Assembly (NCBI GenBank): GCA_012729785.1
Contig: JAAYCL010000038.1
Coordinates: forward strand, 1 to 64,000
DNA: 64,000 bases
Source of the DNA: Chlamydiota bacterium
GTDB lineage: Bacteria > Auribacterota > Tritonobacteria > UBA1439
Direction of reading: 5' to 3'
The notes under the pieces are model-generated. The model was given only the letters and a program-made list of their open reading frames with translations. It did no database searches and was not told the origin of the DNA. Below, in pieces: positions 19,660-25,664 of the stretch. Position 1 is the stretch's first letter. Every line of letters begins with the position of its first letter. The translations under genes and the position numbers were made by a program.

Positions 19660-20730
19660 CTACTCGACGACGAGGGCCTTGCGGTCCACGAGGCCGAGGT
19701 ACTTGAGGTCGTCCACGCTGGTCGTCGTCGCCGGGTCCACCGCGCCGCCCTCGAGGTAGTACGTCCCGGCTGGGATGCCGTTGAACTGGAGGTTCTGGAG
19801 GACCGGGTAGTCGAAGACCTCGGGCAGGGCGATGGGCCCCGCGGCGAGGCCGAGGTACGGCGTCACGGCCGGGACGAACCCCGCGCCCCGCTGGTAGTAG
19901 AGCGCCGAGCCGTCCGGCCGGATGACCCTGACGAACGGGTAGCACGGCGTGGATGACGCGGTCACGTTCGCCGTGACGTTGATGATGTCGGTCTGGCGGA
20001 ACGACTTCTTGTCGGGCCTCAGGTCCACCGGCAGCGACCCGATTTCGAAGGCGAAGTTGATGGGATCGAACTCATAGCAGGCCTCGACAAGATAGAAGAG
20101 CGGACTCCACGGATCGGAGCCCATAAAGTTCAACTCGTGCCCCGTGCCGAGTAAGTCGGCGGGCGGCGTGTTCAGCCATTCCCAGTATTGGAACCCGCTT
20201 CCGATGGACGAGGCCGGATCGTCGTTGAATTGCGCGGAGACCTGGAGCCAGTAGATCTCGCCCGCGGTCTGCGCCCACGGATATACCATCGCCTGGTAAC
20301 TGAAGATGTGGTGATAGACGCCCCCCGCGTACACCGTCCCCGCGTACGCCTCGTTGCAGTCGGCGAGGGGGACGCTGGCCTCGTTGAAGCCGCCGCCGGG
20401 CTTCGAGTCCAGGGGGTCGAAGGCGTCGTTCAGGTACTGGTTCAACGTGAAGCCGTTCGGCCGGAGCCCCGTCGGAGGGCTCACCGGGCCGGGGGTGCCG
20501 TTCTCGTACCCTTCGTACTCGCCCCACCACCTGATTACGTTGATCGGCTGGCCGTCCGGGCACCTCCAATCGTCCGCGGAAACGTAGCTGGTTCCCCCGT
20601 CGAAGCACACCTGCGACATCCAGCCGTCCGGGCAGGTCATATCCACCGGCTGCCTCCAGCCCCCCGCCGCCGCGGCGCCGGCCACCGCGAGCGCGCACAA
20701 CGCGACAGCGAACATCGGCGTCCTACTCAT
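19660..20730 (-). CDS. Secreted protein of unknown function, paralog of 21027-22055
   Basis: A 356-residue exported protein with signal peptide MFAVALCALAVAGAAAAG. Aromatic-rich patches DDWRCPDGQPINVIRWWGEY and IYWLQVSAQF resemble a beta-sandwich family common in planctomycete-like secreted proteins. The C-terminal about 130 residues (LRPDKKSFRQTD ... GIPAGTYYLEGGAVDP ... ALVVE) match the shared C-terminal module. Start 20730 is preferred over 20736 because AAGGAGG is then nine rather than three bases away. Two DAxx/DDW segments suggest ligand binding, but no catalytic site was identified. Confidence 0.75.
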   Translation of the reverse strand: MSRTPMFAVALCALAVAGAAAAGGWRQPVDMTCPDGWMSQVCFDGGTSYVSADDWRCPDGQPINVIRWWGEYEGYENGTPGPVSPPTGLRPNGFTLNQYLNDAFDPLDSKPGGGFNEASVPLADCNEAYAGTVYAGGVYHHIFSYQAMVYPWAQTAGEIYWLQVSAQFNDDPASSIGSGFQYWEWLNTPPADLLGTGHELNFMGSDPWSPLFYLVEACYEFDPINFAFEIGSLPVDLRPDKKSFRQTDIINVTANVTASSTPCYPFVRVIRPDGSALYYQRGAGFVPAVTPYLGLAAGPIALPEVFDYPVLQNLQFNGIPAGTYYLEGGAVDPATTTSVDDLKYLGLVDRKALVVE

Positions 20731-21026: not shown

Positions 21027-22055
21027 CTACTCGATGACGAGCGGCGTGCTGTCGACGATGCCGATGTACTGCAGGTCGTTGATGTCCGTCGTCACCGGAT
21101 CCACCGCGCCACCCTCGAGACGGTACGTCCCCTTGGGCATATTTTCGAATCGCGCGTTGGGCAGGATCGAGTAGTCGTCGATCTTCGGCAGCGCGATCGG
21201 CCCCGCCTCGATGCCGAGGTACGGCGCCACGGACGGCACGAACCCGGAGGCCTGGGTCAGGTAGAGCACCGATTTATTGGGCTGGACTATCCTGACGAAC
21301 GGCCAGCACGGCGTGGCGGTCGCCGCCACGTCGGCCGTGACGCTGATCGAGTCGCTCTGCCGGAACGTCGGTTTGTTCGCCGCCAGCCCAACCGGCATCG
21401 TCCCGATCTCGAAGGCAAAGTTGTTCTTCTCCGACGGGTCGTCGATCCATATGGGGTTCCACGTGATTCCATCGGCGGAGTCGTGCCCCGTGCCGAGGAA
21501 GTCGCCCGGCGGCGTGCTCATCCAGCCCCAGTGCGCATACCCGTCGAGATCCCATTCGATCGGTCTTGAGTATTTCGCCTGCACGCTGAGCCAGTAGACG
21601 CTGCCCTTCGTCTGCGTCCACGGCTGCGCCAGTGTGGCCTGGTAGGAGAAGACGTGCCGGGAGAACCCGCCCTCTATCGCGGCCATCCCGACGTGCGTCT
21701 GCCTGCACTGGGCGCGGGGCACCTCGACCGTCTTGAGGAGCGTTCCCGGCTGCCCGTTGTTGTCGGCGTACTGCCTCAGGATGAACGCGGTCGGCTGAAA
21801 CCCCGGCGGGGCGACCACGCCCGGCATCCCATCTGCATAGGGATGGTAGTTCCCCCACCACTTCACGGCGACGATCGGCTGGCCGTCCGTGCACTTCCAA
21901 TCGTCTGCGACCCTGGTGCCGCCGTTTGGATCCACCAGCGAGGGCCATTCGAATGAATTCGTCATAGCCACCGGTTGAATCACGCTCCCCGCCATGGCGG
22001 AGGCGCACATCGCGAGCGCCGCCGCCGCCACCGCACAGATCACCACCCTATTCAT
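21027..22055 (-). CDS. Secreted protein of unknown function, paralog of 19660-20730
   Basis: A 342-residue exported protein with signal peptide VVICAVAAAALAMCASAMAG and a GGGGGAGG ribosome site supporting the ATG at 22055. It shares domain order and motifs with 19660-20730: ADDWKCTDGQPIVAVKWWGNY, VYWLSVQAKYS, FAFEIGTMPVGL, then the C-terminal module (FRQSDSISVTADV ... MPKGTYRLEGGAVDP ... PLVIE). The pair is an older tandem duplication. No Thr-Pro linker is present in either, so the module can be attached directly. Function unknown. Confidence 0.75.
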   Translation of the reverse strand: MNRVVICAVAAAALAMCASAMAGSVIQPVAMTNSFEWPSLVDPNGGTRVADDWKCTDGQPIVAVKWWGNYHPYADGMPGVVAPPGFQPTAFILRQYADNNGQPGTLLKTVEVPRAQCRQTHVGMAAIEGGFSRHVFSYQATLAQPWTQTKGSVYWLSVQAKYSRPIEWDLDGYAHWGWMSTPPGDFLGTGHDSADGITWNPIWIDDPSEKNNFAFEIGTMPVGLAANKPTFRQSDSISVTADVAATATPCWPFVRIVQPNKSVLYLTQASGFVPSVAPYLGIEAGPIALPKIDDYSILPNARFENMPKGTYRLEGGAVDPVTTDINDLQYIGIVDSTPLVIE

Positions 22056-23524: not shown

Positions 23525-24532
23525 ATGAGCGACCGATTCGACCAGGTGATGCAGCAGTACCTCCTCCCGATGGAGAAGCTCTCCTACGGGCCCGTCGACT
23601 CCACCTACTTCCTCCACAAGAAAGGCGGCCTCGTCTACTGCGAGGGGTACGCTCATCCCCCGGACGGTTTCTACGGCGCCCTGATCAAATACCCGGACCC
23701 GAAGGGGCATATCGACATCTTCGGCAGGAAATTCAACTGGACGCACCGTCGCTACGAAAACGGGGAGCTGGTCATCATCCCCGGCGACGAGCAGGTCCGA
23801 CGGATGATCGAGATCTACCCGGAGCTCGCGTCGCGCCCCCCCCTGCCGCTCTTCGCCGACCATTTCTGCCACTTCCTCTTCAGCGAGATGCAGGGGTTCT
23901 TCGACAGCAGGCGCTCGCTGGAGCTCCTCTGCAGGGAGAACCAGCGGCTCCGCGAGGTCGTCGACTCCCTGCACGAGCTTCTCGGGGTGCCGCGCGAGCG
24001 GATCGGCTGTTCGGGCTCGCTCGCCTACGGCTACTACGAGGAGCCGCTCGAGGACGTCGACGCGACCTTCTTCGGGACCGTCGAGCAGAACTTCGACGTG
24101 GTGCTCCGCATCGCGGAGCTTCTGAAGCGCGAACCGGAGCGGGAGGTCAGGGAGCTCGGCAAGTCGTGGCCGCTGCGCTTCAAGCACATGGGCACCCTGG
24201 TCTGCCCCTTCTTCCGGTACGCGGACCCGGCGGAGATCCCGTACCTGAACTGCACGATGGAGCTCCTCGCCCCGTCGGTCTCGATCACCGGCACGGTCGC
24301 CGACGGCCGCCACACCCCGTACCTCCCCGCCGTCTTGCCGTTGGAGGACGTCAGGGCCGACGGGAAGGCGCGCCTCCCGATCGAGGTCGTGATCTACGAC
24401 GGGGCCCAGCGCGGCGAGTATCTCAAGGGCGACCGCGTCTGGGTGAAGGGCCGGCTCGTGAAGGTCGCTCGGGGCGGGCGCGCGCACGAGGCGGCGCTGG
24501 TCACGAAGCCCGAGGAGATCGGGAAGCGGTAG
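23525..24532 (+). CDS. Nucleotidyltransferase-fold protein of unknown function
   Basis: A 335-residue cytoplasmic protein with a GGAG ribosome site. Residues 164-179 read GS, eleven residues, then DVD, the classical motif of the polymerase-beta-type nucleotidyltransferase superfamily. A third acidic residue could be D292 in VVIYDG. The N-terminal about 100 residues (YCEGYAHPPDGFYGALIKYPDP) and the overall layout recall archaeal NTase-domain proteins of unknown function. The C terminus (GDRVWVKGRLVKV) looks like a small beta-barrel. It is followed 19 bases later by a phosphoribosyltransferase-fold gene, so the two probably act together, perhaps on a nucleotide or RNA. Substrate unknown. Confidence 0.65.
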   Translation: MSDRFDQVMQQYLLPMEKLSYGPVDSTYFLHKKGGLVYCEGYAHPPDGFYGALIKYPDPKGHIDIFGRKFNWTHRRYENGELVIIPGDEQVRRMIEIYPELASRPPLPLFADHFCHFLFSEMQGFFDSRRSLELLCRENQRLREVVDSLHELLGVPRERIGCSGSLAYGYYEEPLEDVDATFFGTVEQNFDVVLRIAELLKREPEREVRELGKSWPLRFKHMGTLVCPFFRYADPAEIPYLNCTMELLAPSVSITGTVADGRHTPYLPAVLPLEDVRADGKARLPIEVVIYDGAQRGEYLKGDRVWVKGRLVKVARGGRAHEAALVTKPEEIGKR

Positions 24533-24551
24533 GCGCCCGCAGGGGAGAGAC

Positions 24552-25664
24552 GTGGAATACCTCGCGCTTGCGCGAAAGAGCCGCCAGGCCGCGGTCTACG
24601 AGCTCAAGGGGGAGTACGGCGACAGCCTCACGCGCTACATCGCCTCGACCCCCCAGAGCCGCCTCCTGCTCAACAGCCCCGAGATCGTCGGCGTCCGCTA
24701 CACCGACCTCCTCGAGGACGCGGTCGTCGCGGTGCTGGCCAACCTCCCCGCGGCCTCCTCGCTCCGCCGGCTCGATCCGCGCACGATCGGCGTCATCCAC
24801 TTCCTCCGCGGGAGCCTGAACTTCGGCATGCGGCGCGCCCTCGCGCGCGCCTACGGCTTCAACGTCCACTGCTCCTCCTTCATCACCTCGCAGCGCGAGC
24901 GCGACGCCTACGGGCGCTGGTTCATCAAGGACAACCAGTACCGGAAGATCGCCATCCCCCCCCACGCCACCCTCTTCTTCGCCGATGTCATCGCGACCGG
25001 CGTCACGATCTCAAACGGGCTGGAGATCATCGTCCAGCTCGCCAAGAACAGCGGCGCCCCCATCCGGCAGATCGTCTTCTTCACCATCGGCTGCCACAAG
25101 CTCGAGAAGCTCCTCAGGGAGTACAGCCGCCGGCTGAAGGAGATCTTCCCCGGCTACGAGCGCACCGTCGCCGTGTACCTCGAGGGGAAGTTCCACCTCG
25201 CCGACTCGAAGACCGCGGTGCGTATCAAGCTCCAGGGGACCGACCTGATGCGGCACCCGGCCATCCTCGCGCCGGAGTTCGAGCTCGCGCAGTACGAACG
25301 CCTCTCCTCCGCGCTCGAGCGGTGCGTGGTCTACGACGCGGGGACCCGCGCCTTCGACGCCGACGACTACCTGCGGAAGCTCGAGGCGTACTGGGAGGAG
25401 GTGCGCCGTCAGGCGGGGAAGGGCTGGACGCTCGAGGAGGCGCTCCGGGAGCGGTGGCCCGAGGAGGAGTACCGGCTGCCGTACGACCGGTTCAGGGCGG
25501 CGAAGACGGCGCAGTGGCGCGGCGTCGGGGACGCGTTCCTCAGGAGACTGCACGGCGCCTTCAAGGCCCGCTGGACGAAAGGGTTCGCGCACCGGGCGGG
25601 AACGCCGAAGGCGCTCGCCGAGCTCTGCTCCCTCCGCCTCAGAGAGATCGCCCGAGCCCGCTGA
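24552..25664 (+). CDS. Phosphoribosyltransferase-fold protein of unknown function
   Basis: A 370-residue cytoplasmic protein starting at GTG (ribosome site GGGGAGAG). Residues 141-155 (LFFADVIATGVTISN) fit the PRPP-binding loop of type I phosphoribosyltransferases, with hydrophobic strands either side (IGVIHFLRGSLNFG upstream, IRQIVFFTIGC downstream). The C-terminal about 120 residues are helical and basic and match no known hood domain I recognise. It sits 19 bases after the nucleotidyltransferase-fold gene, and its last 26 bases overlap the end of aroE on the other strand. Function unknown. Confidence 0.65.
   Translation: MEYLALARKSRQAAVYELKGEYGDSLTRYIASTPQSRLLLNSPEIVGVRYTDLLEDAVVAVLANLPAASSLRRLDPRTIGVIHFLRGSLNFGMRRALARAYGFNVHCSSFITSQRERDAYGRWFIKDNQYRKIAIPPHATLFFADVIATGVTISNGLEIIVQLAKNSGAPIRQIVFFTIGCHKLEKLLREYSRRLKEIFPGYERTVAVYLEGKFHLADSKTAVRIKLQGTDLMRHPAILAPEFELAQYERLSSALERCVVYDAGTRAFDADDYLRKLEAYWEEVRRQAGKGWTLEEALRERWPEEEYRLPYDRFRAAKTAQWRGVGDAFLRRLHGAFKARWTKGFAHRAGTPKALAELCSLRLREIARAR

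Follow-up and report, generated by a model that had tools for sequence, protein, structure and literature searches.

On balance, we think that gene 2 of the two-gene locus described here encodes a divergent phosphoribosyltransferase (PRTase), most likely of the uracil type, that acts in anaerobic base catabolism and salvage, that its neighbor gene 1 encodes a nucleotidyltransferase (NTase)-like protein with an OB fold, and that the pairing of the two is specific to one lineage. Gene 2 has a PRTase fold in a confident model, carries conserved motifs, and is genetically linked to allFGH and to nucleoside phosphorylase genes. Its most likely role is the recycling of bases freed in anaerobic nucleoside and pyrimidine catabolism, for which we infer catalysis, base specificity, and the direction of the reaction. 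Homologs of gene 2 are conserved in several candidate phyla, and the allFGH/phosphorylase association offers a concrete, testable function for a PRTase that has had no name.

Layout of the two-gene locus

The window, a 64-kb stretch of DNA, comes from a 2.59 Mb genome (G000), in which it is contig C38. The genome is an Auribacterota-like MAG, its nearest named relatives being MAGs of Candidatus Auribacterota. The features of the locus are as follows:

23525..24532, + strand: gene 1, nucleotidyltransferase-like, 335 aa, ATG start, one of nine paralogues in its own genome
24014..24061, + strand: gene 1 GS-x11-DVD, polymerase-beta-type catalytic motif, residues 164-179 (from sequence and family conservation)
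24257..24529, + strand: gene 1 C-terminal OB-fold domain, residues 245-335 (AF2 and Foldseek)
24533..24551, + strand: gap of 19 bp between genes 1 and 2 (8-19 bp across five genomes of the family)
24552..25664, + strand: gene 2, divergent phosphoribosyltransferase, 370 aa, GTG start, single copy (AF2 and Foldseek)
24801..24824, + strand: gene 2 FLRGSLNF, residues 84-91, at the position of ILRAGLGM in uracil PRTases (near-invariant in 30 homologs)
24981..25007, + strand: gene 2 PRPP-loop-like ADVIATGVT, residues 144-152 (conservation in 30 homologs)
25317..25343, + strand: gene 2 ERCxxYDAG, residues 256-264, possible counterpart of GLGDAGD of uracil PRTases
25359..25661, + strand: gene 2 C-terminal all-helical extension, residues 270-370 (AF2 model, pLDDT above 88)

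Both ORFs, which a sequence-only reading of this DNA had proposed as neighbors 19 bases apart, were recovered, and the two motifs on which that reading was built, G164-S165-x11-D177-V178-D179 in gene 1 and ADVIATGVT (144-152) in gene 2, lie exactly as it described. Gene 2 is 71–81% identical over its full length in five other genomes of the family and 41–54% identical in more distant groups; gene 1 is 59–77% identical in four complete neighbors, the copy in a fifth neighbor being truncated. Because of this conservation in homologs, we regard both as real genes rather than chance ORFs. They are probably co-transcribed in one bacterial family. The single promoter proposed for them is unconfirmed, as a scan gave no sigma-70-type site above threshold; the candidate TTGCCC-18-TATTCT at about 23447, picked by eye, scores only 8/12. 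Elsewhere in the window, two adjacent secreted-like proteins of about 310–350 aa, encoded on the − strand at 19660-20715 and 21027-21965, look mutually paralogous.

Gene 2 is a divergent member of the PRTase fold

The AF2 model of gene 2 has a mean pLDDT of 92.4, and its top PDB match in Foldseek is the Sulfolobus uracil PRTase 1xtt (E = 7.4e-6, prob 1.00), with PyrR, HPRT, and APRT coming next among the plausible matches (prob about 1). Matches to clamp-loader (RFC) structures had an rmsd of about 15 Å and were taken as artefacts of helical content. The confident model and the PRTase matches, together with weak Pfam matches, bear out the PRTase fold first suggested by the PRPP-loop-like motif.

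Profile searches place gene 2 near several PRTase families and within none of them. Pfam UPRTase (PF14681) matched 4 of 23 homologs (best E = 8e-5) and gave no match to the window protein, and Pribosyltran matched 5 of 23 (best E = 1.2e-4). The PRTase-CE profile (PF24390) reached E = 8.6e-5 in its best homolog and 23.0 bits in the best of the single scans; the window protein scored 12.9 bits, the family cut-off of 27 bits not being reached. The curated PF14681 cut-off was likewise not reached by gene 2, and canonical Upp, run as a control, scored 242 bits with the same profile. Since the Pribosyltran, UPRTase, and PRTase-CE matches are of about 1e-4, and sub-cut-off where shown, we treat gene 2 as belonging to an unnamed PRTase family. 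The expectation that no catalogued family would cover the genes thus held at cut-off for both gene 1 and gene 2 across Pfam, NCBIfam, and the PADLOC models. Searches of PDB sequences gave nothing useful.

Across 30 homologs of gene 2, the segments FLRxxLNF, SQR, YRK, ATGxT, GTDL, and ERCxxYDxG are near-invariant. Nearly all of these proteins carry (D/E)xxATGxT, in agreement with the PRPP loop of the PRTase superfamily, in which [ST]TGxT or ATGxT comes after one or more acidic residues; within the loop A148 and G150 are invariant and T149 is present in 29 of 30, and the first of the usual two acidic residues is A/G, replacing D. Residues E256, C258, Y261, D262, and G264 are also invariant, as is the late-fold YDxG that they include, mostly in the form YDAG, which on motif similarity may be the counterpart of GLGDAGD, the uracil-binding region of Upp. 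An hhalign comparison of gene 2 with Upp was insignificant (prob 0.9%), although its motifs, including FLRGSLNF/ILRAGLGM, fell in register, and a profile-level sequence match between the two was therefore dropped.

Gene 2 resembles Upp (PF14681) in its fold, its FLRxGLxF-like segment, its ATG PRPP loop, its late DAG-containing motif, and its linkage to uridine phosphorylase. It differs in being only 17% identical and below the Pfam cut-off, in its large insertions, in its helical C-terminus of about 100 residues, in having a different acidic residue in its PRPP loop, and in coexisting with canonical Upp in many genomes. To PRTase-CE (PF24390) the likeness is a weak sequence similarity near the PRPP loop in several homologs, whereas the members shown always score below 27 bits and the contexts of gene 2 are metabolic.

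Gene 2 is linked to nucleoside phosphorylases and to allFGH

Gene 2 is single copy wherever whole-genome searches found it. Of the 44 genomes that make up the phylum set, 12 have it; so do MAGs labelled Deltaproteobacteria, Myxococcales, Oligoflexia, Desulfobacterales, and Peregrinibacteria, as well as another seven genomes from other groups. Two 1 Mb Peregrinibacteria genomes (loci L042 and L043) carry homologs about 46–51% identical in their best segments, a similarity that suggests horizontal transfer.

Outside the Auribacterota, a nucleoside phosphorylase gene of the PNP/UDP type (PF01048) lies directly downstream of gene 2 in 9 of 13 loci (three checked by Pfam, the rest by sequence similarity). 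At locus L033, gene 2 adjoins ABC permeases and an ATPase, subunits of the xanthine-dehydrogenase family, and a NUDIX/nucleoside deoxyribosyltransferase protein. Gene 2 sits between an allF-like gene and allG in G128, G149, G269, and G287, which represent two families, and some of these loci also contain allH, glycerate kinase, a metal-dependent amidohydrolase, a cyclase, or another PF01048 phosphorylase. These assignments were checked by Pfam for allF and allG in G149 and for allG in G269, the others being made by similarity of translations; a separate check bore out allG in both G128 and G287. In two more genomes (G074 and G221) the neighbor of gene 2 has a sub-threshold OTCase-N match. These contexts point to nucleobase and nucleoside catabolism and salvage. 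The small proteins encoded at L144:5081-5908 and L145:5157-5981, which carry a partial OTCase/ATCase carbamoyl-phosphate-binding domain, adjoin gene 2 in an arginine/lysine cluster.

The association with AllG extends to whole genomes: in a set of 384, AllG is present in 17 of 19 gene-2 genomes versus 31 of 365 others (Fisher 4e-15 counted by genome; about 4e-6 by family, assuming 230 families). Part of this co-occurrence may come from an anaerobic way of life or an ancestry that the genomes have in common.

AllFGH was reportedly characterized only in 2024, for allantoin. The genome from which the window comes has its own allF, allG, and allH, which lie with a uridine-phosphorylase-type PF01048 gene within 20 kb (C36:16000-35900, locus L153). 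The same cluster encodes PreA/PreT-like dihydropyrimidine dehydrogenase subunits, a dihydropyrimidinase-like amidohydrolase, a CN_hydrolase, a class-III aminotransferase, a PnrA-like binding protein with an ABC ATPase, and malonate decarboxylase alpha. Judged by its predicted gene content, this is a cluster for reductive pyrimidine catabolism with an unusual combination of genes; gene 2 is separate from it, on contig C38 rather than C36. A literature search returned no paper on COG1665, on PRTase-CE, or on fdrA, uridine phosphorylase, and dihydropyrimidinase together. In E. coli, AllFGH is an oxamic transcarbamylase, and the text of the paper describing it makes no mention of a phosphoribosyltransferase (PMC11326118). 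Homologs of the genes for this enzyme lie beside gene 2 in four genomes, and the genome that contains the window has them in a cluster of their own; gene 2 is no subunit of the E. coli enzyme as described (PMC11326118).

A proposed role in base salvage and its rivals

In the scheme we favor, nucleosides would be imported and their bases released by phosphorylases. A freed base could then be degraded, in the genome studied here by a reductive pyrimidine pathway with carbamoyl transfer of the AllFGH type, or it could return to the nucleotide pool through gene 2, which would convert PRPP and a nucleobase to a nucleoside 5'-monophosphate and PPi. Several observations count against this scheme. A canonical, full-length upp is present in most genomes of families f1 and f9 (G006 and G021 have only weak matches) and would make an ordinary uracil PRTase superfluous in them; the idea that gene 2 stands in for canonical Upp was dropped as not general. 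A salvage enzyme is not an obvious fit within an allF-allG operon. Gene 2 itself is below all Pfam cut-offs, has one acid of its PRPP loop replaced, and lies away from the allFGH cluster of its own genome.

There are two main rivals. Gene 2 could be a PyrR-like or otherwise catalytically altered PRTase fold that senses UMP or PRPP and regulates the enzymes of pyrimidine or ureide catabolism, any enzyme activity being secondary or absent. PyrR is among its best PRTase-fold structure matches and its weak profile matches, and the replaced acid, the extra helical domain, and the canonical upp found alongside gene 2 in most f1 and f9 genomes would all suit a regulator; yet across the 30 homologs there is hardly any variation in the ATGxT loop or at the putative base-site residues, and we judge this reading unlikely. 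We are a shade more skeptical of a role within the AllFGH pathway itself, in which gene 2 would phosphoribosylate a ureide intermediate or an unusual base, or serve as an accessory part of AllFGH, with no ordinary nucleobase salvage. The allF-gene 2-allG order of four genomes, which come from two families, the co-occurrence with AllG, and the OTCase-N-like neighbor in G074 and G221 favor such a role, but E. coli AllFGH is active without any gene 2-like protein (PMC11326118), and in 9 of the 13 non-Auribacterota loci the neighbor of gene 2 is a nucleoside phosphorylase.

Beyond salvage as such, we put forward only tentatively, as a bolder idea that may well prove wrong, that gene 2, AllFGH, and a uridine- or purine-type phosphorylase form one undescribed anaerobic pathway. 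Gene 2 would be a dedicated PRTase choosing between salvage and fermentation of the base, and AllFGH would act on a pyrimidine-derived carbamoyl compound instead of oxalurate, for example by converting N-carbamoyl-beta-alanine to carbamoyl phosphate for ATP. The gene associations suggest a wider role for AllFGH in pyrimidine or ureide catabolism of anaerobes.

Genes 1 and 2 do not form an obligatory pair

The sequence-only reading treated the two genes as one system, possibly for tRNA or nucleotide modification, signalling, or defence. Such a joint NTase-PRTase system could account for the adjacency of genes 1 and 2, in the same order and on the same strand with gaps of 8–19 bp, in five genomes from four genera of one family (a sixth genome of the family retains the adjacency with a truncated gene 1), for the full overlap, within the phylum set, between the 12 genomes that have gene 2 and those that have the gene 1 family, and for the sub-threshold PRTase-CE matches of up to 8.6e-5. 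The adjacency is weak evidence, however, because the flanking aroE/aroA region is syntenic in the family too, and the co-distribution in the phylum set could be explained by shared ancestry. Moreover, a tree of 63 gene 1 paralogues shows that the orthologs of the operon copy in other Auribacterota families are sited elsewhere.

Genomes that have gene 2 alone also speak against a joint system. No gene 1 relative was found in 13 gene-2 genomes outside the Auribacterota, by a search that had no internal positive control, which weakens an empty result, but was of the same kind as one strongly positive in all 12 Auribacterota genomes, and none was found in seven more gene-2 genomes, by a search that included Auribacterota positives. 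With at least 20 non-Auribacterota genomes having gene 2 and no gene 1 relative, the pair is not obligatory for gene 2, and we reject a dedicated two-gene system; gene 1 is, besides, one of nine paralogues. Nor did a defence role fare better: PADLOC gave no match, plasmids and viral contigs gave nothing convincing, and the neighbors of gene 2 are metabolic, so a defence or mobile-element reading was set aside. We therefore consider a joint function of any of these kinds improbable. The pair, adjacent in one family only, is a lineage-specific arrangement and not a two-component machine.

Gene 1 belongs to an expanded NTase-like OB family

The GS-x11-DVD motif of gene 1 fits the hG[GS]x(7-13)Dh[DE] pattern of the polymerase-beta nucleotidyltransferase superfamily and is kept in nearly all 63 family members, among which G164 is invariant and S165, D177, and D179 are at least 90% conserved; E210 is a candidate third carboxylate. 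NTP_transf_2 (PF01909) matched 28 of the 63 members at E≤0.1 (best 1.2e-6), whereas the window protein itself goes unrecognized, with no Pfam match. The AF2 model of gene 1, made from a shallow alignment of 5 sequences, has a pLDDT of 54.5 (about 50–69 in the NTase region), and we accordingly make no fold claim from it. The NTase fold proposed for gene 1 finds support as an NTase-like assignment at the level of the family, through the NTP_transf_2 matches, and not in its own model, which is poor in that region. The C-terminus of the model is locally confident and matches SSB, PriB, and RPA OB folds in Foldseek (prob about 1.0, best E = 2.4e-3). Gene 1 probably transfers a nucleotidyl group to a nucleic-acid or small-molecule acceptor; of the roles that the sequence-only reading proposed, nucleotide or tRNA modification may still apply, to gene 1 alone.

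The family has nine copies in the genome studied here and 6–10 in each gene-2-carrying Auribacterota genome. Gene 1 brings to light an expanded, uncharacterized NTase-OB family characteristic of the Auribacterota genomes examined. A distant homolog was found in one non-Auribacterota bacterial genome (L138:4729-5856, profile match E = 3e-7), and its layout resembles that of the archaeal COG1665 NTases. This lends some support, as a lead, to the archaeal-like layout ascribed to gene 1. Gene 1 and the L138 protein share the order of a beta-rich N-terminus, the GS...D-x-D motif, and a C-terminal OB region of the RGxF type, presumably the layout of COG1665; the gene 1 family differs in being strongly diverged and present in about nine copies in Auribacterota, the only protein compared being bacterial.

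At L089:4051-6585 (contig C2 of G000), a gene 1 paralogue forms an in-frame fusion with a CCA-adding/poly(A)-polymerase-type protein that has a PolyA_pol head, RNA-binding, and HD domains. The fusion may hint at a function on the ends of tRNA or other RNA; G003 has the two as separate genes. Three paralogues stand in tandem at L085:7593-10714 (contig C16 of G000), runs of two or three recur in the other gene-2-carrying Auribacterota genomes, and a protein-L-isoaspartate methyltransferase gene adjoins such a run in G000, G002, and G006. The paralogue at L088:6601-7632 (contig C37 of G000), beside an Hsp20 gene, has lost the D-x-D motif (GPLAYGWEEDRALNLVF) and is therefore probably catalytically inactive.
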